DNA of 64,000 nucleotides, taken from the NCBI GenBank assembly GCA_937981995.1, contig CALJNC010000038.1, positions 1 to 64,000 on the forward strand. Reading direction: 5' to 3'. The DNA is from an uncultured Chitinophagaceae bacterium (GTDB lineage: Bacteria; Bacteroidota; Bacteroidia; Chitinophagales; Chitinophagaceae). The notes beneath the pieces are model-generated. The model ran no database searches. It was not told the origin of the DNA and worked only from the letters and a program-made list of their open reading frames with translations. The translations under genes and the position numbers were made by a program. Shown here piece after piece: positions 23,272-53,413 of the stretch (its first letter is position 1; the number at the start of each line of letters is the position of its first letter).

Positions 23272-26200
23272 CTATTGCCCAAATATGAATCGGAACATAA
23301 CGCCACCACGTGTAGTAGTGATAGGGAATGCCGTACTTACACTAGGTATACTGCGTCTTCTGTCATATAAAAAGCGTAGCGTCAAATTTTTATTAATAAT
23401 ATAATCAATAGAAGGCGAGATGCTAATTACTTTTTGACCCCTAGTAGGTATACTTGTTCGATCATCTAATCGATTAATGCTTGTAAGATCATCGCGTACT
23501 GAGAAGTCAAATTTAAAGTTGACATCACTTTTTTGATTGTGTAAATTAAAGTATTGCGTAGGTACAACTACATTTTTTAAACGCATACCTGCTCCAATAG
23601 TAAACTCCGAACTATTTGTTTCGCTTAATTGAAAATCAATTAAACTCATACTTAAGGTTCTGCTTTTCTTGTACTCAAATTTAAAGTTTAACGAGTTTTG
23701 AAAAGTTACATCTACTCCAGCTACCGGGCCGAAGTTCTCCGTAATGGTAACATTAGGAACCAAGAAGAAAGGAACATAATTACCAGAGGTAGAATCAATA
23801 AAGGAAGGATAGCCTAAACCAAATGCATCATTATAGGTAAGGGCACTATTAAATCCATTCATAGACATGGATCCATTATAAGAGTGTCTAATAGTGAACT
23901 GCTGGAAAATTTTTCTAAGTTTTTTATTACGAGCTAAGCCATTGTATGTTAAGCGCCAATTAGGTAATGGGAATAAATTTTTGAATGGATTAGAACGCAC
24001 ATTATCGTTGTTTTCTTCAACTAATGGTATGGTTTCAGGATCTCTGCCCGCATAAGCTGCAAGGAAGGCGGGGATCAATACATTTTGCTGATAGCGGGAA
24101 TAACCTTTGGTATAATCAGGATCGGAAGGGTTAGGTAAACTAGCCGTATACGGATTCACTATTCCTAATCTTCTTGAAATGTTTTGACGATAGTCTTCAA
24201 AATTATAGAAAGCTTGATTTAGGTTATCCGCATTTCGTTTTTGAAATAGTGTTCTTAAGGCAATAAATGATATGTCAAAACTACCTGTTTGATATGGATT
24301 TAAATGTACATAAGCATCAGTTCCACCTATGGTATCCTTAAATAATTCAGTAAGATTTTTACTGAATGTTTTTTTCCAAGTAAGGTCAACTCTAAAATCT
24401 TTAAAAGGCTCAATATTGGCGGTGATATTAAAGTTTTGAGAATACTGTTGTTGTAGTTGTTGGCTAAATAGAGAGTCCCTAGTAAACCAATTTTGATTAC
24501 CGTTTTCATCTAGCCACATTCTGGTTGGTTGGTAACCCAATACAAAGTCTGCTCCTGGTTTAAATTGATTAGCAAAGTTTAAACCAGCGTATTGATTGCT
24601 ATCCATATAGCCTGGCAATACGGTACCCATATTTTCATTATAATTTACGCTTACTCGTTTTAAACCCATTAAAGCTCTACCTACTATTCTTACACTTTCA
24701 GGTGGGTCAGGTTGTTTCTTTTTACGTTCTTCTCTTTTTTTCTTCTTGGCTAATTTCTTTTTCTTTTTCTCTTCTTCGGCTTTCTTTTTTGCTTCTTCTT
24801 TTTTCTTTTTGGCAAGCTCTCTGTCTAAATCTTGCTTGCCGCTTTGTGTGATTTTTACTTTATCATTATCAACCAATACTTCATCGTTGCCATCCTTTTT
24901 CTTTTCTTTTTGCTTACCATCTTCACTTAAGTCTATCTCAACCAATTTTCCTTCTTTTGGTTTTTTGATTTTACTTGGGATGCCGTTCTTTTTCTCTTCT
25001 CCTTTTTTTGTTTTCTTTTTTCCTTTGTTTCTTTTAGGTTGGTTTAGGACTCTAAGGATTTTGACCTTGTTATATAGTTGGCCAAAATTCATTTCACCAT
25101 TAATACTTCTTTTTTGGGTATTACCTATTGTGTTACCTAGTGAGGTAGCTAATAAGGATGCTCTAGCAAAATCGTAGGTTGAGGAATAAGAAGCTCTTGC
25201 CGTAATCCAATCGGTAAGCGGGAATTTATTTAATGGTACTGTGTAATTTACATTTACGTTGTGATTGAAATTCGTATTTCGTCCACCTCGTAAAATATTA
25301 TCCAATACTTCGTTTTGTTTTACCTTGCTATCAATTCTTCCTTCAGGCTCATCTATACGCGATAAATTAGTTGCCGAGTAATCAAACGAAAGTGATTTGA
25401 AAAGGTTCCAACGCAGATTGTAGGTTCTTGTCCATGTAAAGAATTTGAAATAATTGGTTGGCAATTCATAGCTTGCATCATCTATGTTGCGGAGCTCAGT
25501 TTCGCCTATAATGCGTTGCATACTATTACGGAATGTAAAGTTGGTAGGCAATAAGTTTATATTAAAATCTCGAATTGGTTTTAGGTATCTTCTTTTTGCC
25601 TTAATCACATTTTTGAATGGCTCAAGTGGTTTTGATTTAGGAGCATAGGTATAACCAAAACTCAGGTTATGCTCGTCAAGCTCATCTTTTGTTATCAATG
25701 GGTTTCTTTTTGAGGTTCCCGTATAGGAATAACTCATATTAAAGTTTTGCAAATCCCAAGGTTCAACATTGTCATTTTTCTTAGGAGCTATACGTACGTT
25801 TTGTAAGTTTAAACTTTTTATTGAAGTAAAGTCTTGTGCTGCTTTCCTTGCTGAGTCTTTTGCAGCACCCGAAAAGTTTGCAACTTTTTCATCAAATTTT
25901 ACATCCTTATCAAATGGATCATACACGGGGTTAGTAACCGCTTGATTATAGCCAGCATATATTGGAAGTTGAACCCCCCATTTTTCTGGTAAAAGTTTTC
26001 CGCCATTTATAGTAGTAGATACATCAAATTGCGAGAAGTTTTCTTGTGCTCTTTCGTTTACACGTTGGTCAATGTTTCCATAACCTGCCGTGTACATATT
26101 ACCTCCTAGCTTTACGGTAGCAATGTCTGCTAATTGAATATCTGCTTGGCCAATAGCAGCCCAACCGCCACTTTCTTCCATGTTAGATAAGCGCAATTCA

Positions 26201-29200
26201 TTAAACCAAGCTTCGCCGCAAATGGTACCACCATCATCATTAGGGCGGTTATTGTTTTTCTTTGGATTATGTACACCTAGCATACACATTTCTGCATCGC
26301 CAATATTTGGGTTTCCTACTATAGTAATGGTACGTCCATTACTTAATTCCTTGATATATGGTACAGTAGCAGGGTAGCCTTCTTTATTTCTTTGTAGTTT
26401 GGCATCAATCAACTCTTGGAATTCAAGATTTAGATTATTCGCTTCTGGCCATACTTCGGTATCTAAATTGTTGCCAAATGGAGTTAGTTTTAAAGGAATG
26501 CGGTATTCATAATAGTTATTTGCAAAGTCACTACCTATGCGTATAAAGCCATGCATTTGATCATCTTGTAAAGCGCCACTTGCTGATGCTTCGGCATGAA
26601 TAAACATATCAATTCTTTTAAATTGACGAATGTCCATTCCTAAACTTTTAAATACTCCACGTGAGTCACCATCCTCTAAATCACAAACTTGTAAAGCCAA
26701 GGCTTGTTCATTTAAATCAATATTTTGACCGTTGGTTCCTGCTTGAACTTGTGTTTGGATTCCCGGAGGTATTACATAGTTTACCGGCGACCTTGATCCA
26801 TTTTCTTGCTTACTTACTGAGGTTAAATTAAAAGTAGTTGCATCATTATCAGAAATAGGAATCAACTCGCCCGGCTCTTTTAGTGAGAAGTTATATCTAC
26901 GCCATTGATTACGTCCTAACTCCAAACGTGCAAAACGTAAAACGGTTCTTTCCTTAAAACCAGTCATAAACATACGTGCAAATCGAATGGATCTAAAGTC
27001 ACTTATGCCGCCTATACTGTTGTTGAATTGTCTTATTGGAATTTTAAATTGATACCATACCGCATCGGAAGTTTTTTCATTGGCGAATTCAACAGTTGTT
27101 ACTTGCTTATTTACTATATAATTTTCACCCACCACCATATTTGGTTTAATGTCAATTACGTATTGGAAATATTGTTCATTTTCATTTAAAGTATTGTCTC
27201 TATTGATATCCTCTGTTTCAGGAATATTAGTAAACGAATTTGAGAATGTATTTGCATTATTTTGAACAGGAGAATTTCCTTGCGGATTATTAAATGATAA
27301 ATATCGATCTAAGATTTCGCGCTCTTCACTATCATAATCATCTCCACGGAAGTGGTGGTAGTCATCATTATTTGGGTCCTTATTTGCATCGGTATAAGCT
27401 TTTGAATTTAGCCCTACATTGTCTTCTATGTTTTTTAAATATGCTTGAAGATGTTCTCGTTCCTCATCATTCGTCATACCATCATAACCTAAATCTTGTT
27501 CAAGACGCTCTGTTTCTGAACTACCAAATGCTGGTGATAATTGTTGTTGAAATTTAGGAACTTTACTCCAAGCAGTAGTTTGTGTTTTACTAGCATCAGG
27601 AGGAGAGGGTAGTCCGTTCTCAAAAAACTTACGAGAATCTTTCAATATATCCTCAGATATATTTCCGAGGTTCAAGTATAATTTACCACCGCTTGACGTT
27701 TGATTAGAAGGATCTAGATAAGGATCTAACATCCAAAATTCTACAAACTCAACATTGGCTGTTTCAAAATCACTAAAATCAATAGGGCGCATAATTCCTC
27801 CCCAACGTGTTTCAGGATTTAAGAGTTCGCCATCTGCATTAATATTTTGTGCATCGTAGTTATACGGCCCTTTTAATGAAGGAGAATATGCAAGGTCAAA
27901 GGTTGTTTGATTTCCCTGTAAAGCGGTTACTGTAACATTAGGAAATACCTCTTGCTGTTGAATAAGACGCGTATAGTGGTTTGATACATAGCCCGTATCA
28001 ATATGCGTAGGGTTACAACTTTGGTTTAAATCTGCAAGGCAAGGGTCCAAATTATACCAAGCCAATTTTGCACGATTTTTACCATAGTCAGGATTGTTTA
28101 CTAATCGTCCTTCAGGAAATAATTCATTGCCCAATGCATCAGTGGCACCTACAGGAGTGCTGGCTAGCTGCCAAGACATTACTGGGAACTTTAAGTCATA
28201 CGAACTTCTTGTGCCTTCAAAGTCATCAATGTAAACTTCACCCGAGCCGCTGGTACCTTGTATTAATTTATGATGCCCTGGGAAAATACGTGCCACCTCT
28301 CCACTTGCTGTAACCATTGAATTGGCTTCCGTTTTTATTAATGGTAAGTTGTTTAAGAAAGTGGTAAGCTTTGGCAATTCTTTTTGATAGTTAGCATCTA
28401 ATCCTATCACAGTATTTTTTAATGGATCATCTCCAAACGATACTTTATTAAAGTAAGGACGTTCTGATAATCTAAGGATAGTAGACCCAACTGTAAAGTC
28501 ATTATTTATAAAGTAATCTAAACGTGTTCCTACAAAGTTTTGTACTTGCGTACCAAAGGCAATATTGTTTTCGTAGGATACATTTATGGGTACACCTGAA
28601 CTTAATATACCAGAGTTTATAATTTTAAGTTTCCCTATCCCATAGTCAATAGTATAATCCACACCTTCAATCAATCGCTGCCCACCTGCTGATACGTTTA
28701 CTGACCCTTGCGGGATATTAAATCCTCCCAAGAAAATTTCGGAAGAGTTAGATGCTTCAAAACTTCCTTTTAAAACAAAACGGTTAAACTGCGGAAACTG
28801 AATGGCAATGTTTTTAGTAGAGTCATACAATACGTCGTATACATATTTTTTTTCTAAAGCAATATCTCCATTAAACAGAGGTTTTAAATCTTTACCAAAA
28901 GGTTCTATTACAGGAAAAATGATTTTACCCGTTTGTGCTTGAATTGTAATTCCCTCTACATAATCAAATCGTCCATCGGGTTGAGGGTCACTTTGATTAT
29001 TTAATCTATCAAGGTTTAACAAGTTTAATAGTGGGATGCCGGCATTAGGACCTTCAGGTAAGAAACGTTTTAACCCGCCTCCAGGGTCTTGGTACAATAC
29101 ATTTAGTATAAAGTTATTCGGGTTTACACCACTTGCTCCTAAGGGATAAATATTTTTCATCATCAAATCCCAAATTGGTTTTCTAGGATCTGGTGTTGTT

Positions 29201-30693
29201 GATTTCAACATTTTAAGAAACAATACCTTGGGTTCAGAACTATCTGGTGGAAGTTGCTGCGAAAATTCTCCTACTTGATACACTTTACCATTATGCGTAT
29301 ACTCAAAGGCTACACCAATTACATCATCAGGTTGTAGCTGAGAGTTAACGGATAAAAATCCTAACTGAGGATTAAAGCTGTACTCATTTGGGTTTAGTTT
29401 TCTTGCAAATGTTTTTTCAAAATCATTAGCTGCACGTAGTCCTCTACTTTGTAAGGCAGTAATTACAGTACCTGTTTCACGTATGCCTTGTGTTTTTAAA
29501 ATTTGAGAGTATAAGGAGTTGGCGCCATTGTTGGGCAGCCCTGTGCTTGTTGTTTGAAAAGCCGTATTGTATGGTTTAGGCTCTCCTAAATCTTGTAGCG
29601 CTACAATATCTCTTACGTTTTGTGTCGTACCTTGTCGGTTGGTTACCCATACTTCAATTCGCGTAATATTATTTAAGGATTGTATGATAGGGTAATTTTC
29701 TAAAGCGCCATTGTAGCTGTCTCTAAAATATTGCGCTAATAAAAAGTGACGGAAGTAATCATACTCATCAGATTTTATTTCAAATTCTTGGGTTTGTGCA
29801 CCGCCTTTTACTGAGAAGCTTTCTCTCTGCGATTTTTGTTGTGATACAACATTGGTCATCATTAAACGCCCAAATTGCAATTGTGCTTTTATCCCAAACA
29901 AAGATTGTACACCTTGAATCAATTGACTTTTTAATGGAAAGCTTATAAAACCTGCTTCGAGCTTTTTAATAATATCATCTTCCTTACCTGTCCAATCTAG
30001 TTTTAATTGGTTTTCAAAATCAAAGTTTGCCTGCGTATTGTAGTTAAAGTTCATACGCATTTTATCACCAATCTTGGCTAGCATGTTTAGGTTCATTTGA
30101 ATATCAAAATCAAATATCCCGTACTTCTGTGCGCTTTGTACAAGGGCAGGGTTTTGAACATTTTGCCAGTTGCCACCAAAAAACATATCTACATTTCCTT
30201 GTGGTTTTACCTCAATAGTTGAACCGCCAAAAATTCTATCAAAAATAGCATTGCCTAATTCTACTTTTGGAATCACGCCACCGCTTCTTGATATATTAAA
30301 TAAAGTATTTGCTCTTTTTCTCCAGTAAGCATCTTCATAGCGCTTCGCTTGATAATCCATAAACTCATCATACTCCATTTCGGTAGGATTTCTATAATAA
30401 GTGCTTCCTATTTTTTCTTTGATGGTATAGGTTTTGGTTACTGGGTCGTATTCGTATTCTGTATTTAAATTTTTAGGATCTTTAAGGTCAAACTGTTTGC
30501 CCTTGTTTTGCGTAGCACTATTTCCACTTCTATCTTTTATAGGAAACTTTAAGGTATCCTTTTTAGTACTATCTCCGGCAGGAATAAAAAACGGACTGTC
30601 AAAGGGAGCAGCCTCGGCAGTAGGAAACATAGCAATCCCACATACTGTAATAAGTATACTAATAGAATAATATAGTAGGTTCCTCTTTTTCAA
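23272..30693 (-). CDS. sprA: SprA, outer-membrane translocon of the type IX secretion system
   Basis: SprA (Sov) is a single giant barrel, here 2473 residues, through which T9SS cargo crosses the outer membrane, and it is needed for gliding in many Bacteroidota. Evidence is the size, the signal peptide (residues about 1-28, ending PTAEA), the adjacency to ruvA that is typical of the phylum, and segments such as YRNPTEMEYDEFMDYQAKRY, FRDSYNGALENYP, IYVDDFEGTRSSYDLK-like (GEVYIDDFEGTR), and ERTVLRFARLELGRNQWRRY. The protein alternates amphipathic strands throughout and ends RGGVMFRFIFGQ, consistent with a terminal strand. A strongly basic, low-complexity insertion occupies about residues 1875-1990. 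It follows ruvA by five bases. Confidence 0.95.
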   Translation of the reverse strand: MKKRNLLYYSISILITVCGIAMFPTAEAAPFDSPFFIPAGDSTKKDTLKFPIKDRSGNSATQNKGKQFDLKDPKNLNTEYEYDPVTKTYTIKEKIGSTYYRNPTEMEYDEFMDYQAKRYEDAYWRKRANTLFNISRSGGVIPKVELGNAIFDRIFGGSTIEVKPQGNVDMFFGGNWQNVQNPALVQSAQKYGIFDFDIQMNLNMLAKIGDKMRMNFNYNTQANFDFENQLKLDWTGKEDDIIKKLEAGFISFPLKSQLIQGVQSLFGIKAQLQFGRLMMTNVVSQQKSQRESFSVKGGAQTQEFEIKSDEYDYFRHFLLAQYFRDSYNGALENYPIIQSLNNITRIEVWVTNRQGTTQNVRDIVALQDLGEPKPYNTAFQTTSTGLPNNGANSLYSQILKTQGIRETGTVITALQSRGLRAANDFEKTFARKLNPNEYSFNPQLGFLSVNSQLQPDDVIGVAFEYTHNGKVYQVGEFSQQLPPDSSEPKVLFLKMLKSTTPDPRKPIWDLMMKNIYPLGASGVNPNNFILNVLYQDPGGGLKRFLPEGPNAGIPLLNLLNLDRLNNQSDPQPDGRFDYVEGITIQAQTGKIIFPVIEPFGKDLKPLFNGDIALEKKYVYDVLYDSTKNIAIQFPQFNRFVLKGSFEASNSSEIFLGGFNIPQGSVNVSAGGQRLIEGVDYTIDYGIGKLKIINSGILSSGVPINVSYENNIAFGTQVQNFVGTRLDYFINNDFTVGSTILRLSERPYFNKVSFGDDPLKNTVIGLDANYQKELPKLTTFLNNLPLIKTEANSMVTASGEVARIFPGHHKLIQGTSGSGEVYIDDFEGTRSSYDLKFPVMSWQLASTPVGATDALGNELFPEGRLVNNPDYGKNRAKLAWYNLDPCLADLNQSCNPTHIDTGYVSNHYTRLIQQQEVFPNVTVTALQGNQTTFDLAYSPSLKGPYNYDAQNINADGELLNPETRWGGIMRPIDFSDFETANVEFVEFWMLDPYLDPSNQTSSGGKLYLNLGNISEDILKDSRKFFENGLPSPPDASKTQTTAWSKVPKFQQQLSPAFGSSETERLEQDLGYDGMTNDEEREHLQAYLKNIEDNVGLNSKAYTDANKDPNNDDYHHFRGDDYDSEEREILDRYLSFNNPQGNSPVQNNANTFSNSFTNIPETEDINRDNTLNENEQYFQYVIDIKPNMVVGENYIVNKQVTTVEFANEKTSDAVWYQFKIPIRQFNNSIGGISDFRSIRFARMFMTGFKERTVLRFARLELGRNQWRRYNFSLKEPGELIPISDNDATTFNLTSVSKQENGSRSPVNYVIPPGIQTQVQAGTNGQNIDLNEQALALQVCDLEDGDSRGVFKSLGMDIRQFKRIDMFIHAEASASGALQDDQMHGFIRIGSDFANNYYEYRIPLKLTPFGNNLDTEVWPEANNLNLEFQELIDAKLQRNKEGYPATVPYIKELSNGRTITIVGNPNIGDAEMCMLGVHNPKKNNNRPNDDGGTICGEAWFNELRLSNMEESGGWAAIGQADIQLADIATVKLGGNMYTAGYGNIDQRVNERAQENFSQFDVSTTINGGKLLPEKWGVQLPIYAGYNQAVTNPVYDPFDKDVKFDEKVANFSGAAKDSARKAAQDFTSIKSLNLQNVRIAPKKNDNVEPWDLQNFNMSYSYTGTSKRNPLITKDELDEHNLSFGYTYAPKSKPLEPFKNVIKAKRRYLKPIRDFNINLLPTNFTFRNSMQRIIGETELRNIDDASYELPTNYFKFFTWTRTYNLRWNLFKSLSFDYSATNLSRIDEPEGRIDSKVKQNEVLDNILRGGRNTNFNHNVNVNYTVPLNKFPLTDWITARASYSSTYDFARASLLATSLGNTIGNTQKRSINGEMNFGQLYNKVKILRVLNQPKRNKGKKKTKKGEEKKNGIPSKIKKPKEGKLVEIDLSEDGKQKEKKKDGNDEVLVDNDKVKITQSGKQDLDRELAKKKKEEAKKKAEEEKKKKKLAKKKKREERKKKQPDPPESVRIVGRALMGLKRVSVNYNENMGTVLPGYMDSNQYAGLNFANQFKPGADFVLGYQPTRMWLDENGNQNWFTRDSLFSQQLQQQYSQNFNITANIEPFKDFRVDLTWKKTFSKNLTELFKDTIGGTDAYVHLNPYQTGSFDISFIALRTLFQKRNADNLNQAFYNFEDYRQNISRRLGIVNPYTASLPNPSDPDYTKGYSRYQQNVLIPAFLAAYAGRDPETIPLVEENNDNVRSNPFKNLFPLPNWRLTYNGLARNKKLRKIFQQFTIRHSYNGSMSMNGFNSALTYNDAFGLGYPSFIDSTSGNYVPFFLVPNVTITENFGPVAGVDVTFQNSLNFKFEYKKSRTLSMSLIDFQLSETNSSEFTIGAGMRLKNVVVPTQYFNLHNQKSDVNFKFDFSVRDDLTSINRLDDRTSIPTRGQKVISISPSIDYIINKNLTLRFLYDRRRSIPSVSTAFPITTTRGGVMFRFIFGQ

Positions 30694-43335: not shown

Positions 43336-46300
43336 ATGAAATTGAGACTAATTATTTTACTTTGTTTGACAGCCATCACAAACTTTGCCTACGCCCAATC
43401 AGGCGCAGGTGGTATTGATGGTAAAGTTCTTGACGCAAAAGGCGAACCTGTTCCCTTTGCAAGTGTAGGTGCCTTTGAAGGTGGTATACTTAAAGGACAG
43501 GGTAAAACAAACTTTAATGGAAACTATAAAATCAAACCTTTAAACTCTGGCACGTATACTATTAAAATAAGTTCCGTAGGATTTAATAAAATGGAGATCA
43601 GTGGTATTGTAGTTAGAAGCTCGGGTTCTACTACTCAAAATGCCAAAATGACTCTTAAGGGTAAAGGTGGTAAAGGAAAAGAACTCACAACCGTAAAAAT
43701 TAAAACAAAGAAGAGCATTGTTGACGTAACAGATCCTGGAGGGCAATCTGTAGGTAAAGATGTAATTAATAACATTGCAAGTGATAATCCGTTAAAGGCA
43801 TTAGAAACACAAGTAGGTGTAGATAATGGTGGACAAGCTGGTGGTACAGTACACATTGGTGGTGGCCGTGGAGATGAAACATTATATATTGTAGATGGTA
43901 TGCAAGTAAGAGGTGCAGCAGCCATTCGTAATTTACCACAAGAGTTATTTAGAAATATTGAAGTATTTAAATCAGGAGTACCTGCAAAAATTGGTAATGC
44001 TACGGGAGGTGTAATTGAAATTAACTTGATTAATCTTTCGCCTACTTTGCGTGGTGGTCTTAGAGCACAACGCTCCGTAGATGGTTTTAATAATAACTTA
44101 GTAAACTTTAATTTGTCAGGTCCTTTATTATTTAAAAAGGATTCTAACAAAAGAAAGATTAACCCAATCATGGGCTTTGTACTAAGTTTATCTGGTAGAT
44201 ATAATAAAGATGCTAATCCATCTTATAATGGTTATCAAGCTTTGAAACCTGAAGTATTAGAAGCTATTCAAGCTAATCCTTTAACGGCTAATCCAAATGG
44301 AACTGGCGCATCTTCTTTTATACCAACGGTAGAAACAGTTACGGCTGATGACTTTAGAGAAATAAGAGCAAAAGAAAATGGAGAGAGTTATAATTTGAAC
44401 TACTCAGGTAAGTTAGATTTTAGTCCTACTTCTCGTATGAATGTGAGATTAGGTACGTTCCTTGATTATAATAGAAATAGAGGTTGGAACTTTTTAAACT
44501 CATTATTTGCACCAGAAGCTAATGCGATTAATAATAGCTATAGAGCAAAGGCATATGTAAGATTACAACAATCATTAGGTAAGCCAAATGCCGAAGAAGA
44601 TGCTTTGATTTCAAATGCGTTTTATAATATTCAGCTTTCTTATCAAAGAACATTTGGGCAAACTGAGAACCCAGATCATGGACAGAATATTTTTAACTAT
44701 GGCTATGTAGGTAAGTTTGATCAAACAACGTCTCCTTTTTACAGAGTAGATACATTTACGGGGCCTAGCGGAAAAGTATATGAAGGCTGGAAGTTTATTG
44801 GAAACGGTGTAAGTGGATTAACTTATACTCCTGGTGGTTTAAACCCTTTATTAGAAAATTATACAAATCAAGTAATGTCTGATCCAAGATTTGACATTCG
44901 TAGTCAAACATTATTGCCAATATTTGGTGGATTAAGAAATGGAGATGCACCAAGTTCTTCTTATAATATCTGGACTGGGGCTGGTACTCAAATTTCAAGC
45001 TACAGTTATTCTCAAAACGACCAGTTTGATTTGAATTTAGGTGCTTCTTTTGATATAAATCAAGGGATCAAAAACAAAGCCAATAAAGATGCTATTACGC
45101 ATCAGATTGAATTTGGTTTAGGTTACCAACAGATTACTGCAAGAAGTTATGCTATTGGAGCAAATTCAACAGGTAATTTATGGACCTTAATGCGTCAAAG
45201 TGTAAATAATCATATTCAAAATTTAGATGTAGCTAACCCAATATTTGTGGTAGGTGGGAATGAATATAGCGAACAAGAGTTAATAAATAGTGGACTTCAG
45301 TTCTCAGAATTTGACACTGTAAAGTATAATCAGTTTTTAGCAGCAAGTGATCAAACAAGATTTTCAAAAGAGTTAAGAAAAAAACTATTTGGAGATGAGA
45401 ATAATACCTCAACTATTTTTACCGATAATCTCAGCCCTGAGACCTTTAGCTTAGATATGTTTTCTGCTGAGGAGTTGTATGGAGATGGCAGAAATGTTTA
45501 TTTAAACTATAATGGGTATGACTATTTAGGAAATATAGAAAGAACTCAACCTAACTTTAATGACTTTTGGACTAAGAAAGATGCAAGAGGTGATTATTTA
45601 AGACCAATAGCTCCTTACAATCCTAACTATATGTCTGGCTACTTATCTGATTTATTTAAGTATAAGGATGTAACATTTAATATAGGTGTAAGAATTGATC
45701 GTTTTGATGCTAACCAAAATGTATTAAGAGATCCATATTCATTAAATGGGATACGAAACCTTACAAGCATTTCTGGAGAAAATTATAGAACAGCAATCAA
45801 TTCTAGAACGAATCAACCAGCTCCTGATCCTGTAACAGCAGGTTTTGATGGGGAGTGGTTGCCGTATGTAGATAATAACCAAGCATCTACACCAACATTA
45901 GTTGGTTACCGTAGTGGTGATACTTGGTATGATCCATTTGGTAAAGAAGTAGTAGATCCTACAACTTTATCAGAACAGTATGCTAATGGTTTGCCTATTC
46001 AACCATGGTTAACTGATAGAACGGATAGTATTAAAAGTGAAGGCTATAAAATTGATAATGCCTTTACAGATTACGAGCCAGATATTGCTATCTCGCCAAG
46101 AATTCGTTTTACATTCCCTATTACAGACCAAGCATTATTTTATGGTAACTATGATATAATGACTCAATACCCACAGGGAAGAAATTTTGTTACACCTGAT
46201 CAATATTATTACTTTACTGAGCGTGGAGCTACTATCAATAATGCAAATTTAAAAATGCAACGTACCATTAATTATCGTTTAGGTTTTGAGCAAGCCGTTA

Positions 46301-47184
46301 CTCCTAAAAGTAAAATTGGTATTGAGGCATACTATAATGAACGTAAAGGGCAGATACAACAACAACAGTTTATCCTGGCTTATCCTCAAACGTATGTATC
46401 TTATGGTAACAGAGATTTTTCTAGTACCAAAGGTTTTACATTCAGTTATAAATTGAACCCTACACGAGAAATACCATTAAGATTCTCATTAGCCTATACC
46501 TTACAATTTGCTGAGGGTACTGGTTCTAGTACTACTTCGTTGGCTTCATTGATTAATCAAGGTCAGCCTAATTTACGCCCTATTTTCCCTATGGCTTTTG
46601 ATACAAGACATATTGGTAATATGAACATTGATTACCGTTTTGCACAGAACTATAAAAAAGGACCAAAAATTGGAAAAGAAAAGCCACACTATGTTTTGAG
46701 TGGAATGGGAGCTAACTTATTACTAACTGCTCGTAGTGGACGCCCGTATACCAAAACAACCTTGGCGCAACCGATTGTAGGTGCATCTTCTAATACACCA
46801 ATCATTGGTGGATATAATGGTTCAAGAAGACCATGGACAAACAATTTAGATTTAAGGTTAAATAAACGCTTTAATGTAACAAGCTTAGGTAAGAAGAAGA
46901 AAGTAGAAGGACTTCAGTTTAGCCGTGGAGGCAAAATGTTAAGTGCAGATGTATTTGTATACTTTGAGAATTTATTAAATTCTCGTAACGTACTTAACTT
47001 ATACTCTTATACAGGAGTAGCAGATGATGATGGTTACTTATCTTCTCCGCAAGGAATACAGGATGTAACGCAGACTCGTATTTTCCCGCAGGCTTACACA
47101 GATCAGTATACTACAAGAATAAATAACCCATTTAATTTTAATAACCCAAGAAGAATAAACGTTGGATTTTCATTGAACTTTTAA
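43336..47184 (+). CDS. Large TonB-dependent receptor-like barrel (first gene of cassette)
   Basis: A 1282-residue outer-membrane protein. Signal peptide (about 1-20, ending FAYAQ), carboxypeptidase-like domain (about 25-105, GGIDGKVLDAKGEPVPFASV), Gly/Lys-rich linker, plug domain (about 130-230; VGVDNGGQAGGTVHIGGGRG, LYIVDGMQVRG), then a long beta-barrel with insertions. It ends in NNPRRINVGFSLNF with a terminal Phe, as expected of a barrel. No SusD partner is near. The next two genes, 31 and 38 bases apart, encode a secreted T9SS-like protein and a PorV-like barrel, so the three probably act together. Transport substrate unknown. Confidence 0.9.
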   Translation: MKLRLIILLCLTAITNFAYAQSGAGGIDGKVLDAKGEPVPFASVGAFEGGILKGQGKTNFNGNYKIKPLNSGTYTIKISSVGFNKMEISGIVVRSSGSTTQNAKMTLKGKGGKGKELTTVKIKTKKSIVDVTDPGGQSVGKDVINNIASDNPLKALETQVGVDNGGQAGGTVHIGGGRGDETLYIVDGMQVRGAAAIRNLPQELFRNIEVFKSGVPAKIGNATGGVIEINLINLSPTLRGGLRAQRSVDGFNNNLVNFNLSGPLLFKKDSNKRKINPIMGFVLSLSGRYNKDANPSYNGYQALKPEVLEAIQANPLTANPNGTGASSFIPTVETVTADDFREIRAKENGESYNLNYSGKLDFSPTSRMNVRLGTFLDYNRNRGWNFLNSLFAPEANAINNSYRAKAYVRLQQSLGKPNAEEDALISNAFYNIQLSYQRTFGQTENPDHGQNIFNYGYVGKFDQTTSPFYRVDTFTGPSGKVYEGWKFIGNGVSGLTYTPGGLNPLLENYTNQVMSDPRFDIRSQTLLPIFGGLRNGDAPSSSYNIWTGAGTQISSYSYSQNDQFDLNLGASFDINQGIKNKANKDAITHQIEFGLGYQQITARSYAIGANSTGNLWTLMRQSVNNHIQNLDVANPIFVVGGNEYSEQELINSGLQFSEFDTVKYNQFLAASDQTRFSKELRKKLFGDENNTSTIFTDNLSPETFSLDMFSAEELYGDGRNVYLNYNGYDYLGNIERTQPNFNDFWTKKDARGDYLRPIAPYNPNYMSGYLSDLFKYKDVTFNIGVRIDRFDANQNVLRDPYSLNGIRNLTSISGENYRTAINSRTNQPAPDPVTAGFDGEWLPYVDNNQASTPTLVGYRSGDTWYDPFGKEVVDPTTLSEQYANGLPIQPWLTDRTDSIKSEGYKIDNAFTDYEPDIAISPRIRFTFPITDQALFYGNYDIMTQYPQGRNFVTPDQYYYFTERGATINNANLKMQRTINYRLGFEQAVTPKSKIGIEAYYNERKGQIQQQQFILAYPQTYVSYGNRDFSSTKGFTFSYKLNPTREIPLRFSLAYTLQFAEGTGSSTTSLASLINQGQPNLRPIFPMAFDTRHIGNMNIDYRFAQNYKKGPKIGKEKPHYVLSGMGANLLLTARSGRPYTKTTLAQPIVGASSNTPIIGGYNGSRRPWTNNLDLRLNKRFNVTSLGKKKKVEGLQFSRGGKMLSADVFVYFENLLNSRNVLNLYSYTGVADDDGYLSSPQGIQDVTQTRIFPQAYTDQYTTRINNPFNFNNPRRINVGFSLNF

Positions 47185-47215
47185 AAAAAAATCAAAAAAC
47201 GTTAAAGAATAGATT

Positions 47216-50200
47216 ATGAAAAGAATTGTTTTATTAGCCCTAGCCCTATTTGTAGCAATAGGCCTTACAGCAAGACAACCGGACGGAGAGAAGAAAAGGC
47301 CATCTGGATTAAACAAAACCGCAGCAGGATGTAATCAAACGACTGCCACAATTGATTTAGATATCAATAATGTACGTGCCAGAATAATGAGTGGTGGTGA
47401 TATGTGGTGGGATCGATCGGCAGGAGCTGCACGATATGCAGTACCTAAAGATGGTAACGCAAATGCTTTATTTGCTGGTTCTATTTGGATTGGTGGTATT
47501 GATCAATCTACAAATCAGTTAAAAGTTGCAGCACAAACGTATCGTGGTACAGGTAATGATTATTGGACCGGTCCTTTAGATGAATTTAATGGAGCCTCTG
47601 TTGATTTTCAAACCTGCTCAGAGTGGGATCGTTTTTGGAAAATTAACCGAGCGGACATTAATAATTTTGTGGACCTAGCTGAGGCGTGTAATAATGACCC
47701 AGCATGTATATTTAATTCTTCTAATAAGATACCAGATGCGATTAAAGAATGGCCTGGTAGAAATGCTAATTCACCTACTGGTTCTGGAACAGCAGTAGGA
47801 GCTACTGGTGCACAGTTAAATATTCCTGATAGAGAAATGGCACCGTTTGTTGATGTAGATGGAGATAATGTATACAACTGGTTGAAGGGTGATTATCCTA
47901 ATATTTTGGGAGACCAATATATATGGTATGTATTTAATGATAGAGGAGATGCTAAAACACAAACGCAATCTGATGCAATAGGTGTAGAGATTCACTTAGG
48001 AGCTTTTGCCTTTGGTACAAGTGATTGCTTGAATGATGCAACTTTTTATAACTACAGAGTACACAACTGGAGTACGTCTATTATTGATAGTACCTATATG
48101 GCTACCTGGACGGATGCCGATATGGGTTTTGCTGATGATGATTTTATTGGTTGTGATACAGCCCGTGGTTTAGGAATACTTTATAACGGAGACGGATATG
48201 ATGATGGAGGGGCAGGATATGGTTTTGATATACCCATGGTAGGTGTAGATTTCTTTAGAGGTCCGAGAATTGACAATCCTAATTTCCCGGCTACAAGTAA
48301 TAATAAGTATATCGAATTAAAAATGAGTGTATTTACTTATTTTAATAGAGGACCAGGTGCTACTGGAGATCCAACTATTGGAGCTGAGTTTTATAATTAC
48401 ATGACAGGTAGTTGGGCAAGTGGAGCTAAATTTAAATTTGGATGTGACCCATTTAATGGTAGTGGCCCTGATGCTGCTAGTGTATTCCCAGATGACCCTT
48501 GTAAAGGTGGAATTTCAGAGCCAGATTGTAACAATGCTCCTTTTGATAGACGTTTTGTACACTCTGCAGGACCGTTCCAATTAATACCAGGTATTGTACC
48601 AAGTGATATTACAATTGGTGCTATTTGGGTACCAGATGCAGGTTCGGGTAAATCAGCTTGTTTCTCTAAAATATTAACATGTGATGATAAAGCACAAGAC
48701 TTATTTGATAGAGGTTTTGATTTACCTAAAGGACCACAAGCTCCTGATTTAAAAATTCATCCGTTAGATAGAAAATTAGTTTTGCAATTATCAAACCCTG
48801 AAGGGTCTAATAATTTTAAAGAATTATATGGAATAGGTACAAGTTTGGCAGATACATTGGAACCTCAATATTTTGAGGCTACACCAAAGGCCGTAAAACG
48901 TGAGCCAGCTTATCCTGATAGTGTATACAAGTTCGAAGGATACATAGTATACCAATTAAGAGATGGGAATGTTGCCTTTTCTGATATTAGAGATAAAGAT
49001 GGTTCTGTAAATACTGATGTAGCTCGTATAGCTTTTCAGTGTGATAAAGAAAACCACATTAGTGAATTATTAAACTTTGAAATTGATCCAGAAATCTCTT
49101 CTGATTATTATAAACCTAAATTAATGGTTACTGGTGCAAACCAAGGTTTAAAACATTCGTTTCAGCTTACCGAAGATTTCTTTGCTACTGGAACATCAAA
49201 AGAATTAGTAAACTATAAAACATATTATTACCTAGCAATTGCTTATGCTTATAATAAGTTTGATAACGATGATGTTGATGGTGCTGGTGCTACACCGGCA
49301 AGCTCTGAAAATGAGTTTGACCCTAATGCCGCAAGTAACACACAAGACATTCAATATTTAGAAAGTAGATTGAATGGTAGAGAGTTGCCATTACAAATAA
49401 TTGAAGCAACACCGCATGCTGCATACGATAGCATGTATGTACAAAACTATGCAGACTATGGTACTGGAATTGAGCTTACTCAAGTAGAAGGTCAAGGAAA
49501 TGGTGGTAGAGAATTAGAGCTAACAATGGCTACAATTAATTCAATACTATATGATGGTAATAACCAAGATTATACGCCTACATACCAAGGAGGTTTTGGA
49601 CCAGCAGATCTTTTTGTAACTACGCCTGATAGTTTAGTGGCGGGTACTTATGAATTATCCCTTGATGTAAAAGCTTCACATGCTGCTCCAAATGCTTCAA
49701 GAGGTGTAATAGGAGATAGCACAAATTGGATTCTTAAAAATGTAACTACTGGTGAGACTATTGCAACTAGTGATAATTCAATTGCAACATATAATGATCA
49801 ATTGATTAGTTCTTACGGTTTATCCTTAGGTATGAATCAGGTTTTACGACCAGGTGATGTAGATACATTAGGAGACAATGGTTTTATAACTTCAACGATA
49901 TCATTTGCTGACTTAAATCAATCTTGGTTGTCTGGTGTGCCAGATGCAGAAAGTACCTCATTGTTTAATTGGATTCGTTCTGGAGGAGACTTTGCACCTG
50001 CTCCTGACCCAGTACAATTGGGTGGAGGATTAAGCTGTGATATGGGTGATTGGTCTTTCCCTGCAGATCGTATTGGTGCATATGAGAATATTGTATCAGG
50101 TACGTGGGCACCATACGTGCTTTCTGCCAAAGAATCTAAAAGTGAGTGTGGTAATGGTGTATCATATACTCGTCTTGTAGATCGTGTGATATCACGTATG

Positions 50201-51268
50201 ATGTTCAATATACAATCTGTTGATATTATATTTACTTCTGATAAAACCCTTTGGACTAAGTGTCCTGTTGTAGAAATGACAGATCATGTAGGTGCCGTTG
50301 GATTTGGAGAAGGTCAACAAGCAAAGTATAACATTAGAAAACATGCAGCGTGGGATAAAGGTTTTGATGAAAATGACAATCCTACTTATAGCGCTACTGA
50401 AACTGGTTATAGCTGGTTCCCTGGTTATGCAATTAATGTTGAAACCGGTGTAAGGCTAAATGTTTTCTTTGGAGAAGAATCTGCTAATGCACAGGATAAT
50501 GGTAGAGATATGATTTTCAATCCTACCGGTCGTTTCTCTGACCCTGTAAATGGAGATTTGAAGTGGGGAGGTAAGCATATGGTGTATGTAATGAGCACCA
50601 AATATGATGAAGGGGCTAGTGCTTTGGCAAGTTTAAATGCTGCCGATGCCGATGCAGGTAAATTTTCTGATAACAATGCAAGCTTAAAAGAGGTATATAA
50701 TAATATCATGTGGGTAGGTAATGTTCTTAGATCTCGTGGTGTACAAATGGCTAGCTTGAAAGATGGTTTAATCCCAACTGAAACAAAAGTTAGAATTAGA
50801 GTTGAAAGACCATATGATAACTATTTACCGGATCCTAACTATACACCACGTAATGGTGGTTGGCCGCTGTATACGTTTAATACCGATGGGATTGCGCCAG
50901 TTAAATTAGGTAACGATGGTAATGTATGGACTGGTAATGAAAAAGATTTATTGAAAAACATTCAGCCAGTGCCAAATCCTTACTATGCGTTTAGTGGGTA
51001 CGAAAGAGAAAGACTAGATAATAGAGTAAAAATTATTAATCTTCCTGGTAAAGCAGAAATTAAAATTTATACAATTGATGGTACCTTGGTTCGCACGCTT
51101 AATAAAAATGATAATTTCACAACCTTTGTAGATTGGGATTTGAAAAACAATAAGAATATACCAATCGCAAGTGGTATGTACTTAATACACGTAAAAATCG
51201 AAGATGTAGGAGAAACTGTTTTAAAATGGTTTGGAGCTATGAAACCAGTAGATATTACGAATCAATAG
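47216..51268 (+). CDS. Large secreted surface protein with T9SS type A-like C-terminus
   Basis: A 1350-residue secreted protein. Signal peptide (about 1-19, ending GLTARQ). The N-terminal region has the pattern NNVRARIMSGGDMWWDRS then ALFAGSIWIGGID and LKVAAQTYRGTGNDYWTG, which I recognise from a widespread but uncharacterised Bacteroidota surface family. Calcium-type acidic loops (DVDGDNVYNW, DGDGYDD) appear near 225 and 325. The C-terminus (about 1245-1350) has VPNPYYAFSGYERERLDN, then IKIYTIDGTLVRTLN, SGMYLIHVKIED and LKWFGAMKP, a T9SS type A/FlgD-like sorting fold with an extra tail after the usual basic end. It sits between a TonB receptor and a PorV-like gene; its export through SprA is inferred. 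Confidence 0.85.
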   Translation: MKRIVLLALALFVAIGLTARQPDGEKKRPSGLNKTAAGCNQTTATIDLDINNVRARIMSGGDMWWDRSAGAARYAVPKDGNANALFAGSIWIGGIDQSTNQLKVAAQTYRGTGNDYWTGPLDEFNGASVDFQTCSEWDRFWKINRADINNFVDLAEACNNDPACIFNSSNKIPDAIKEWPGRNANSPTGSGTAVGATGAQLNIPDREMAPFVDVDGDNVYNWLKGDYPNILGDQYIWYVFNDRGDAKTQTQSDAIGVEIHLGAFAFGTSDCLNDATFYNYRVHNWSTSIIDSTYMATWTDADMGFADDDFIGCDTARGLGILYNGDGYDDGGAGYGFDIPMVGVDFFRGPRIDNPNFPATSNNKYIELKMSVFTYFNRGPGATGDPTIGAEFYNYMTGSWASGAKFKFGCDPFNGSGPDAASVFPDDPCKGGISEPDCNNAPFDRRFVHSAGPFQLIPGIVPSDITIGAIWVPDAGSGKSACFSKILTCDDKAQDLFDRGFDLPKGPQAPDLKIHPLDRKLVLQLSNPEGSNNFKELYGIGTSLADTLEPQYFEATPKAVKREPAYPDSVYKFEGYIVYQLRDGNVAFSDIRDKDGSVNTDVARIAFQCDKENHISELLNFEIDPEISSDYYKPKLMVTGANQGLKHSFQLTEDFFATGTSKELVNYKTYYYLAIAYAYNKFDNDDVDGAGATPASSENEFDPNAASNTQDIQYLESRLNGRELPLQIIEATPHAAYDSMYVQNYADYGTGIELTQVEGQGNGGRELELTMATINSILYDGNNQDYTPTYQGGFGPADLFVTTPDSLVAGTYELSLDVKASHAAPNASRGVIGDSTNWILKNVTTGETIATSDNSIATYNDQLISSYGLSLGMNQVLRPGDVDTLGDNGFITSTISFADLNQSWLSGVPDAESTSLFNWIRSGGDFAPAPDPVQLGGGLSCDMGDWSFPADRIGAYENIVSGTWAPYVLSAKESKSECGNGVSYTRLVDRVISRMMFNIQSVDIIFTSDKTLWTKCPVVEMTDHVGAVGFGEGQQAKYNIRKHAAWDKGFDENDNPTYSATETGYSWFPGYAINVETGVRLNVFFGEESANAQDNGRDMIFNPTGRFSDPVNGDLKWGGKHMVYVMSTKYDEGASALASLNAADADAGKFSDNNASLKEVYNNIMWVGNVLRSRGVQMASLKDGLIPTETKVRIRVERPYDNYLPDPNYTPRNGGWPLYTFNTDGIAPVKLGNDGNVWTGNEKDLLKNIQPVPNPYYAFSGYERERLDNRVKIINLPGKAEIKIYTIDGTLVRTLNKNDNFTTFVDWDLKNNKNIPIASGMYLIHVKIEDVGETVLKWFGAMKPVDITNQ

Positions 51269-51306
51269 AATTGAATATTTAGAGAATAACTTAATTATAA
51301 AAGATA

Positions 51307-52467
51307 ATGAGAATTAGAAAACATATTTTACTAGCATTAAGTATCATAATGATAAGCTCAGTTGCTTGGGCTGGAAATAGTGATCGTTCTGGACAAGCAG
51401 GTGCCGGAGAATTATTATTAAATCCTTGGGCAGCTTCAAGTGGATTGTTTGCGCTTAATGTAGCTAATGTAACAGGCCTTGAGGCTATGAAAAATAATAT
51501 AGCTGGCTTGGCTAATATTAATTACACCGAAATGGGCTTGTCTCATTGTCGTTACCTAGCAGGTACCGGAATGAGTATTAGTAATGTAGGTGTTGCTTTG
51601 CCTATTGGCAAGGACAAATCTTCTGTATTGGGCATTAATGTTATGACCTTTGGCTTTGGTGAAATTCCAATTACTACAGCTGATAATCCTTCGGGAGGTA
51701 TAGGTACTTTTAAACCAAGCTTTTTTAATGCTTCTATAGGTTATTCTAAGGCTTTTTCTAAAAGTATGAGTGCAGGTTTAAATGTTACATTCGTAAATGA
51801 AGCTGTTACAAATATTAAAGCAAATGCACTTGGTTTTGATGCAGGTGTACAATACAAAACGGGTAAAAAAGACGCTTTTAAAATTGGAATTACTTTACGT
51901 AATATTGGTACAGATATTCGTTTCTCAGGAGATGGATTTAAGTTTAACGGAAATGCTCCTAATGGAGGTAACGATATAACAGTTGCTTTTCCTAGCGATA
52001 AATTTCAGTTGCCTTCTCAACTTAGCATCGGTACTTCTTATGACATTTATTTAGATGAAGGGAAAAAAGAGTTGGATGCTGATGGGAATCCAATTGATTC
52101 TGATTACAAACCAAAACACAGATTAACACCAATGCTTACATTTAAATCTAATTCATATTCAAAAGATTGGATTGGTTTAGCTGCCGAGTATGGCTATGAA
52201 GATAAGTTCTTTTTAAGAGCAGCATATCGTTATGAAACAGACATCATAAGCGAAAGCAATAATACCACGCTCTATTCTGGTTTAGCAGCTGGTGTTGGTT
52301 ATATGACCAACTTTGGTAAGGAAGATGCTGGTACAAGAATGGCATTTGATTATTCTTACAACCATACTCGTTTTAATAGCGGAAACCATACGCTTACATT
52401 ACGTATTTTCTTAGGTGGAACTACTGAGGATGCTGGCGAAGAAATTGAGCTAGGCGACGACGACTAA
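51307..52467 (+). CDS. PorV/PorQ-family outer-membrane barrel
   Basis: A 386-residue barrel. Signal peptide (about 1-22, ending AWAG), then AGAGELLLNPWAASSGLFAL, the start typical of PorV/PorQ (UPF0164) proteins, followed by repeated amphipathic strands, and NHTLTLRIFLGG before an acidic tail (EEIELGDDD). PorV is the shuttle that takes T9SS cargo from SprA to the surface attachment machinery. This one is encoded beside a putative cargo instead of with the por core, so it is probably a paralogue dedicated to that cargo. It is the last gene of the three-gene cassette; a terminator follows 20 bases downstream. Confidence 0.83.
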   Translation: MRIRKHILLALSIIMISSVAWAGNSDRSGQAGAGELLLNPWAASSGLFALNVANVTGLEAMKNNIAGLANINYTEMGLSHCRYLAGTGMSISNVGVALPIGKDKSSVLGINVMTFGFGEIPITTADNPSGGIGTFKPSFFNASIGYSKAFSKSMSAGLNVTFVNEAVTNIKANALGFDAGVQYKTGKKDAFKIGITLRNIGTDIRFSGDGFKFNGNAPNGGNDITVAFPSDKFQLPSQLSIGTSYDIYLDEGKKELDADGNPIDSDYKPKHRLTPMLTFKSNSYSKDWIGLAAEYGYEDKFFLRAAYRYETDIISESNNTTLYSGLAAGVGYMTNFGKEDAGTRMAFDYSYNHTRFNSGNHTLTLRIFLGGTTEDAGEEIELGDDD

Positions 52468-52487
52468 TAATATTCTAACTTATAATG

Positions 52488-52524
52488 CAACGCTTTCATA
52501 TGCTGGGAGCGTTGTTTTATTTTT
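52488..52524 (+). terminator. Terminator of the surface-protein cassette
   Basis: CAACGCT (52488-52494) pairs with AGCGTTG (52508-52514) around a 13-base loop, followed by a T-rich tract (52515-52524). The tail also reads TATTTTTA (52518-52525), one mismatch from a -7 box, 16 bases before the greA ATG. Confidence 0.7.
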
Positions 52525-52541
52525 AAACAACTTAACGAACT

Positions 52542-53015
52542 ATGGGAGACTTAACTTATGTAACAAAGGAAACGCTTGAATCAATGAAGGCCGAACTTAA
52601 AGAACTAAAGGGGCCAGGAAGAAATGCAATTGCCAAGGCTATTGCTGAAGCACGTGAGAAAGGAGATCTAAAGGAAAATGCAGAGTATGACGCAGCTAAA
52701 GAAGCGCAAGGTCATCATGAAGCAAAAATGGCTAGATTAGAAAGTGCTATTGTCAATTCTAGGATACTAGACCCAAAGGATATTGATTTGACCAAAGTAA
52801 CGATTTTAAATAAAGTAAAAATTACAAACCTTAAAAATGATAAGTCGCTTACTTATCAAATTGTATCTGAAAATGAAGCTGATTTAAAGCTTAAAAAATT
52901 ATCAGTTACTTCACCATTAGCTAGTGGCTTATTGGGTAAAGAAGTGGGTGACATAGCTGAAGTAGAAACACCGGGCGGAATTGTTAAGTTTAAAATAGAA
53001 GAAATAAGTATTTAA
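52542..53015 (+). CDS. greA: Transcription elongation factor GreA
   Basis: GreA (157 residues) rescues stalled RNA polymerase by stimulating transcript cleavage. The N-terminal coiled-coil hairpin has the catalytic acidic tip in EAREKGDLKENAEYDAAKE (about 34-52), and the C-terminal FKBP-like domain shows VSENEADLKL, SVTSPLASGLLGKEVGD and TPGGIVKFKI. Length normal. The HIT-family gene follows by five bases, a pairing common in Bacteroidota. Confidence 0.97.
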   Translation: MGDLTYVTKETLESMKAELKELKGPGRNAIAKAIAEAREKGDLKENAEYDAAKEAQGHHEAKMARLESAIVNSRILDPKDIDLTKVTILNKVKITNLKNDKSLTYQIVSENEADLKLKKLSVTSPLASGLLGKEVGDIAEVETPGGIVKFKIEEISI

Positions 53016-53020
53016 GTAAA

Positions 53021-53413
53021 ATGGCAAGCATTTTTACTCAAATAATTCAAGGAGATATTCCTTCATATAAAATCATTGAGGATGATAACTTTTATGCATT
53101 CTTAGATATTTTTCCTTTAGTTAAAGGACACACTCTTTTAGTGCCTAAAATTGAAGTTGATAATTTATTTGATCTTGACTTGGAAACATTGAACAAGCTA
53201 TTTGCGTTTGCTCAACCTATAGCCAAGGCCATAGAAAAATCATTTGATTGTAACCGTTGTGGTATATCTGTTATAGGATTGGAGGTGCCTCACGCACATA
53301 TGCATTTGTTGCCTATAAATACAGCAGACGATTTGAATTTTACCAGAAAAAAAATAGAAGTATCTCCTGAAGAGATGGAGCTTACTAAAAAGCTTATTCT
53401 TTCAAATCTTTAG
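53021..53413 (+). CDS. HIT-family nucleotide hydrolase
   Basis: A 130-residue histidine-triad protein. The catalytic triad HAHMH is His91, His93 and His95 (VPHAHMHLLP), with GDIPSYKIIEDDNFYAFLDI and PLVKGHTLLVPKIEVDN at the start. It hydrolyses nucleotidyl-amide or dinucleoside bonds; the natural substrate is uncertain. Last gene of the greA pair; its end overlaps the convergent response-regulator gene by 20 bases. Confidence 0.94.
   Translation: MASIFTQIIQGDIPSYKIIEDDNFYAFLDIFPLVKGHTLLVPKIEVDNLFDLDLETLNKLFAFAQPIAKAIEKSFDCNRCGISVIGLEVPHAHMHLLPINTADDLNFTRKKIEVSPEEMELTKKLILSNL

Follow-up and report, generated by a model that had tools for sequence, protein, structure and literature searches.

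The window, a stretch of 64,000 nucleotides from an uncultured Chitinophagaceae bacterium (genome G000, 2.73 Mb, contig C38), carries three consecutive genes on the + strand: TBDT (43336-47184), which codes for a TonB-dependent receptor, BIG (47216-51268), which codes for a very large surface protein, and PORV (51307-52467), which codes for a barrel of the PorV/PorQ family. These three genes together are referred to as the trio. A first-pass annotation made from the DNA letters had placed the same three open reading frames here, 31 and 38 bases apart, and both the coordinates and the spacings were reproduced. The features of the trio and its immediate end are the following; T9SS stands for type IX secretion system.

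43336..47184, + strand: TBDT, outer-membrane TonB-dependent receptor with a carboxypeptidase-regulatory-like N-terminal domain, a plug and a long barrel (Pfam matches for the first two)
47216..51268, + strand: BIG, 1350-aa Sec-exported, non-lipoprotein surface protein (Sec signal; full-length relatives across the class)
47330..48724, + strand: N-terminal domain of BIG (residues about 39-503), predicted super-beta-sandwich (model of homologue L163)
50933..51241, + strand: C-terminal T9SS sorting fold of BIG (residues about 1240-1342), predicted from a model of this segment itself
51236..51265, + strand: conserved C-terminal tail of BIG past the last strand (family consensus [VA]MRPxDLxxF)
51307..52467, + strand: PORV, PorV/PorQ-family 14-strand-type barrel, putative cognate anchor or shuttle of BIG (NF033709 above cut-off)
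52487..52515, + strand: intrinsic terminator-like hairpin, 12 pairs followed by a T-run (folding z-score -4.6)

A gap of 227 bp precedes the trio, after an rny-like gene, and the terminator-like hairpin starts 20 bp beyond the PORV stop, ahead of greA. Because of the short spacings within the trio, the upstream gap and this hairpin, the most likely explanation is that the trio is one transcription unit that ends ahead of greA.

Relatives of BIG were collected from whole genomes and from contigs of uncultured Chitinophagales, Saprospiraceae, Flavobacteriales and Bacteroidales. Linkage was counted only at loci on long enough contigs and with the genes on the same strand, and related loci in this count are not independent of each other. 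BIG was flanked by TBDT upstream and PORV downstream in 110 of the 120 testable loci, which come from several Bacteroidota classes (28/28 in the set from the order, 68/77 in the named class-wide set and 14/15 in other classes), and the median gaps were 26 and 28 bp. For the receptor alone, sequence was sufficient at 121 loci, and at 112 of these a TBDT homologue immediately precedes BIG. Since many families and several classes are represented among the 110 loci, chance adjacency is untenable. The first-pass annotation had staked its proposal on these genes being regular neighbours in Bacteroidota genomes, and they are. Among the testable loci, greA follows the trio in 86 of 97 from Bacteroidia and in none of 15 from other classes, and therefore the trio holds together though its neighbours change. 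The pairwise distances of TBDT, BIG and PORV correlate with each other at 0.82-0.89, as against 0.51-0.73 with greA or the HIT-family gene next to it; these correlations are only supportive because greA and HIT are short proteins.

Among 396 genomes sampled from the Bacteroidia class, a full-length BIG (E <= 1e-150) was found in 293 and sprA, which codes for the outer-membrane translocon of the T9SS, in 385; sprA was found in 292 of the 293 BIG carriers (Fisher p = 9e-6, uncorrected for phylogeny). In the order, BIG is near universal outside the window's own family and patchy inside it. Since sprA is also present in the window, about 13 kb from the trio and outside its operon, as well as in 292 of the 293 genomes with BIG, BIG is almost certainly exported via the shared SprA translocon. 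The earlier suggestion that the genes form a self-contained export or uptake unit thus survives in part: the unit is conserved and uptake is the favoured function, whereas a self-contained exporter is not supported because BIG tracks sprA. Three loci filed under other names, namely, Azovibrio restrictus (L084), a Sphingomonadales bacterium (L137) and Chryseobacterium gleum (L151), have the Bacteroidota-typical locus, and the names on these records of metagenome-assembled genomes look wrong. The neighbouring genes of the window that enter into these comparisons are the following.

23272..30693, - strand: sprA/sov, T9SS outer-membrane translocon (TIGR04189, 2530 bits)
52542..53413, + strand: greA (52542-53015) and a HIT-family gene (53021-53413), housekeeping genes found downstream of the trio across the class

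We take greA and the HIT-family gene as positional markers and do not think that they have a part in the function of the trio. A 1147-aa DUF4175 protein with a weak CBM39 match adjoins sprA (window 19766-23209, - strand).

That PORV is a barrel of the PorV/PorQ family, as was first supposed, is confirmed by its score of 122.6 bits against NF033709, for which the cut-off is 90. It falls far under the equivalog cut-offs of PorV (NF033710, 55.8 vs 250 bits), PorQ (NF033711, 49.5 vs 220 bits) and PorV2 (NF052325, 41.8 vs 325 bits), and its match to PF11751 (PorP/SprF) is only marginal. An N-terminal segment, AGNxDRxGQAGA, is conserved. PORV is not the only PorV of this genome because there are five or six members of the family in it, and the true PorV gene adjoins porU on contig C7. 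When 61 proteins of the PorV family were placed in a tree, the trio PORVs from every class grouped in a single clade (100/99), and true PorV lay outside it (98/92). In addition, fusions of PORV to one or two peptidoglycan-binding OmpA domains occur in three families of the order, as follows.

L040, 4089-6236, - strand: PORV-OmpA fusion
L047, 11070-12833, + strand: PORV-OmpA fusion
L048, 4809-6314, - strand: PORV-OmpA fusion

A PORV that is attached to the cell wall probably does not act as a shuttle, and because PORV carries an OmpA domain in three families we favour a static anchor. Similarly, in the type B system PorP is reported to bind the cargo and PorE to bind peptidoglycan (PMC9143113). 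The separate clade and the OmpA fusions refine the first-pass annotation, which had called PORV a PorV paralogue, in that PORV is no spare PorV. Elsewhere in the window genome a PorU-like protein of at least 1661 aa, open at the contig end, has a distinct PorV-family barrel directly upstream (L077, contig C76, 1-6152), and this is possibly a second sortase-barrel pair.

The N-terminus of BIG, MKRIVLLALALFVAIGLTARQPDG, contains a Sec signal that can be read directly. The first cysteine is residue 39 and is without a lipobox, which rules out that BIG is a lipoprotein. No domain over cut-off was found in BIG in a Pfam scan, and as the SusD families (PF07980/PF14322) gave no match in that scan, BIG as a SusD protein was also ruled out. 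Neither BIG nor PORV had a hit when the PDB was searched by sequence. The fold of the N-terminal region was taken from a model of a 1092-aa homologue, L163 (predicted local distance difference test score, pLDDT, 83.1; predicted template modelling score, pTM, 0.70), and mapped to the window by alignment. In this model residues 46-465 match the N-terminal super-beta-sandwich of dextran dextrinase, glucodextranase and the GH94 and GH116 enzymes; against super-beta-sandwiches of the GH15/GH94/GH116 type the Z-score was up to 19.6, with a root-mean-square deviation (rmsd) of 3.2 over 255 residues. The model thus supports this predicted fold, and a carbohydrate-facing role of the BIG N-terminus is plausible, though a fold match alone implies no function. 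The N-terminal region had been described earlier as looking like a recurrent family, and full-length relatives as well as paralogues of about 550 aa were indeed found. One of these short paralogues is in the window genome (L021, contig C79, 2037-3689, + strand) and others are L051-L059. Because the short paralogues end in ordinary T9SS sorting tails, the same N-terminal domain appears to be exported by two routes.

The C-terminus of BIG had been called T9SS type A-like. By sequence it scores just under the cut-off of the type A model TIGR04183 (21.6 vs 23 bits) and under that of PF18962 (12.4 vs 27 bits), and the end of the PorZ model is matched as well; no match to PorZ beyond this C-terminal domain (CTD) was seen in the profile scan, and there was no match to the type B CTD (PF13585 / TIGR04131) in Pfam or NCBIfam. 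The last 156 residues of the window BIG were modelled with 64 aligned sequences (pLDDT 83.6). The predicted structure has seven strands in the immunoglobulin-like (Ig-like) T9SS sorting fold of the type A kind, which supports the assignment on which the first-pass annotation had made its reading depend. PorZ (Z 10.3, rmsd 2.5 across 90 residues) matched the model best. PorU came next (Z 9.8, rmsd 2.8 across 88), then a protease domain of the Bacillus type (Z 8.6) and the CTD of mirolase (Z 8.3); the CTDs of NucA, RemA and RemZ, which are seen on PorV in the extended translocon, scored 7.4-7.6. Mid-range Z values are frequent among Ig folds. Foldseek, as an independent comparison, nevertheless also put PorZ at the top (E 6.5e-6), ahead of a T9SS translocon substrate. 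In a review the CTDs of PorZ and PorU are described as unprocessed and as remaining on PorQ and PorV, respectively (PMC10202324).

The CTD is among the best-conserved parts of BIG, and BIG has the only strong C-terminus of this type in the window genome (E 2.5e-56; the next is 8.7e-5). The stretch of about ten residues by which BIG was noted to continue past the usual end is real and is a trait of the family, with the consensus RPxDLxxF. In Bacteroidia D1346 is conserved in 48 of 48 sequences and the last residue is F or Y in 94%; the window BIG departs from this consensus in that it ends in Q. In 16 sequences from other classes the terminal F is kept in 81%. The ordinary cargo CTDs of the short paralogues from the same genomes do not have this tail. 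Because the CTD and the tail are conserved and PORV is found fused to OmpA domains, we infer that the CTD of BIG is retained without being cleaved.

In TBDT the CarboxypepD_reg and Plug domains are over the Pfam cut-offs (27.7 bits vs 23.9 for the plug, PF07715), and so the TonB-type receptor first proposed is borne out. It has no match in NCBIfam, and hence none to the SusC/RagA family. A 178-aa open frame antisense to TBDT (43635-44171, - strand) gave no sign of being a gene.

The survey was widened to eight genomes from other classes of the phylum. In these genomes 51 of 91 PorV-family genes are directly downstream of a gene with a BIG-type C-terminus, and 51 of 68 BIG-type C-termini are followed by a PorV-family gene. 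The other 40 of the 91 have no BIG-type CTD directly upstream, and we do not claim a strict one-to-one linkage. The trio is multi-copy in these classes and is often beside glycan-degrading genes. Twenty neighbourhoods were picked around BIG-type CTDs, nearly all of them already known as pairs with a PorV-family gene, and therefore the new information in them is the upstream receptor: a TBDT is directly upstream of the pair in 18 of 20. L202 and L211 are without the uninterrupted order, and L200 and L203 have a short or broken TBDT frame. The Pfam matches of the sampled neighbours include GH88, GH28 (x2), a chondroitinase B-type lyase, a pectinesterase, GHL10 (x4) and CBM9; some loci have no such genes. 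There is no SusD gene in four of the eight genomes and only one in each of two. The gene right after PORV often codes for a TIG-domain or FadL/Toluene_X-like protein (L203, 11060-12454; L207, 10022-11212; L218, 9563-10825), which is possibly a fourth component. The alginate locus of Rhodothermus marinus has genes for a TonB receptor, a T9SS type A protein and a PorV/PorQ protein beside alginate lyases, and its authors assign no role to the latter two, hypA and hypB (PMC9530828).

Based on these findings, we propose that the trio is probably a TonB-dependent uptake complex in which BIG, exported by the T9SS, captures a substrate and PORV retains BIG at the surface. BIG would cross the inner membrane by Sec, for which the signal peptide speaks directly, and would pass the outer membrane through SprA, as the CTD fold and the co-occurrence with sprA suggest. 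PORV would recognise the PorZ/PorU-like CTD, to which the linkage and the PorZ-PorQ and PorU-PorV pairs point. The CTD would then stay uncleaved and PORV would hold BIG at the surface next to TBDT. The super-beta-sandwich of BIG would capture the substrate, probably a glycan or a glycan-like compound, and pass it to TBDT; this last step draws on the operon and on the relatives in loci that resemble polysaccharide utilization loci (PULs). Such a complex would work like SusCD, with a T9SS protein on a barrel in place of the surface lipoprotein. PORV-BIG and BIG-TBDT complexes are presumed throughout this scheme. Nutrient uptake is preferred mainly because of the PUL-like loci in other classes and the alginate locus of R. 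marinus.

Several observations weigh against this proposal. The window trio is surrounded by housekeeping genes and is not inside a polysaccharide locus, and much of the window's own family is without the trio, which shows that it is dispensable there. In one BIG-positive genome (G659) the search found no sprA. Seven full-length second copies of BIG with the special C-terminus (L095, L099, L104, L118, L131, L146 and L147) stand alone, without an adjacent TBDT or PORV. L163, from which the N-terminal fold was taken, is about 30% identical to the window BIG, and the super-beta-sandwich that it matches is a non-catalytic domain in those carbohydrate enzymes. The TBDT barrel has no match to PF00593. 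As to the TonB box, TBDT orthologues have a KVPLID-like segment ahead of the plug, where the window copy diverges.

Could BIG and PORV instead be a second PorZ/PorQ-like pair that handles lipopolysaccharide or surface glycans for T9SS cargo or for envelope maintenance, with TBDT importing or sensing a related signal? The closeness of the CTD to that of PorZ, the sugar-enzyme-like N-terminal domain, the single copy near housekeeping genes and the confinement within the class to sprA-bearing genomes would all agree with this. However, BIG does not match PorZ outside the CTD, true T9SS components are less often lost from T9SS-bearing relatives, and the multi-copy loci of other classes that adjoin glycan-degrading genes fit uptake better, and we consider this explanation unlikely. 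A further explanation is that BIG is an ordinary T9SS cargo, recognised by the true PorV and cleaved by PorU, that PORV serves as a FadL-like small-molecule channel, and that the operon merely groups an uptake receptor with a surface binder. PorV/PorQ proteins do belong to the FadL fold family (PMC12578637), the BIG CTD has the general type A fold, and the short paralogues join the same N-terminal domain to ordinary tails. Yet the CTD is under the type A cut-offs while being among the best-conserved parts of BIG, the additional residues of the tail are conserved, the pairing of PorV-family genes with BIG-type CTDs recurs, and a PORV fused to OmpA is hard to square with a simple channel. It is quite doubtful, then, that BIG is no more than ordinary cargo.

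It is very improbable that the trio is an accessory of outer-membrane assembly, in which a FadL-type barrel and a surface canopy protein would act like BamG and BamH for a TBDT client. BamG is a FadL-fold barrel that permanently binds a surface protein (PMC12611786, PMC12578637), and the conserved AGNxDRxGQAGA segment of PORV could be read in the same light, but no link to bamA was seen, many lineages do without the trio whereas BamG is essential, and the multi-copy loci close to genes for glycan degradation speak for nutrients.

Taking the uptake complex further, the trio may represent a third class of T9SS CTD/barrel pair in Bacteroidota, in which uncleaved PorZ/PorU-like CTDs have their own PorV-family barrels and TonB-dependent uptake stands in for SusCD where SusD proteins are few or absent; one copy would have been fixed early in Bacteroidia and lost from many lineages. 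On this wider proposal our judgement is evenly balanced. A 2025 study states that all type A CTD proteins depend on the same PorV shuttle (PMC12618676), and CTD proteins with their own PorV-family barrels across the phylum would break this single-PorV rule. The T9SS would then build nutrient receptors besides secreting enzymes and adhesins, and a polysaccharide uptake route would be suggested for Bacteroidota classes that are without SusD. The trio is a phylum-wide arrangement rather than a local oddity, and a widespread Bacteroidia locus would gain a name. A literature search of partial coverage turned up no paper on a PorV-TonB or PorV-paralogue unit, on a PorV-family barrel that is specific to one cargo and combined with a TonB receptor, or on this Bacteroidia locus. 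The kinds of components, namely, TBDT, T9SS CTD protein and PorV-family barrel, are known, and so is the pairing of cargo and barrel in type B/PorP; what appears to be new is a PorV-family barrel that is putatively specific to a CTD protein and linked to a TonB receptor.

Among known systems, the PorZ-PorQ and PorU-PorV pairs of the T9SS attachment complex have a T9SS-fold CTD protein on a PorV/PorQ-family surface barrel, as we propose for BIG, and their CTDs are the nearest solved structures to that of BIG; unlike them, BIG has neither a sortase nor a propeller region as in PorZ, PORV forms a clade of its own, and a TonB receptor is linked. The type B CTD with PorP/SprF (PorE) resembles the trio in that the cargo gene is directly followed by its own barrel gene and in the OmpA-type tie to peptidoglycan that is found in some lineages, whereas PORV is of the PorV/PorQ family and the BIG CTD has a type A-like Ig fold. 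In BamG-BamH of the Bacteroidota BAM complex a FadL-fold barrel permanently holds a surface protein, as PORV may do, but the partner there is a lipoprotein, the pair is bound to BamA, BamG is essential, and the sequences are unrelated to the trio. The tonB-hypA-hypB genes of the R. marinus alginate locus, compared by order and annotation alone, have the gene order of the trio in a polysaccharide utilization locus, with a hypA that is shorter than BIG (2,181 nt) (PMC9530828). SusCD likewise has a TBDT in an operon with a surface protein, a lipoprotein in that case, and relatives of the trio lie beside polysaccharide-degrading genes; in contrast to SusCD, BIG is not SusD-like, has no lipobox and would reach the surface via the T9SS, the receptor is not of the SusC family, and a barrel is the third component.

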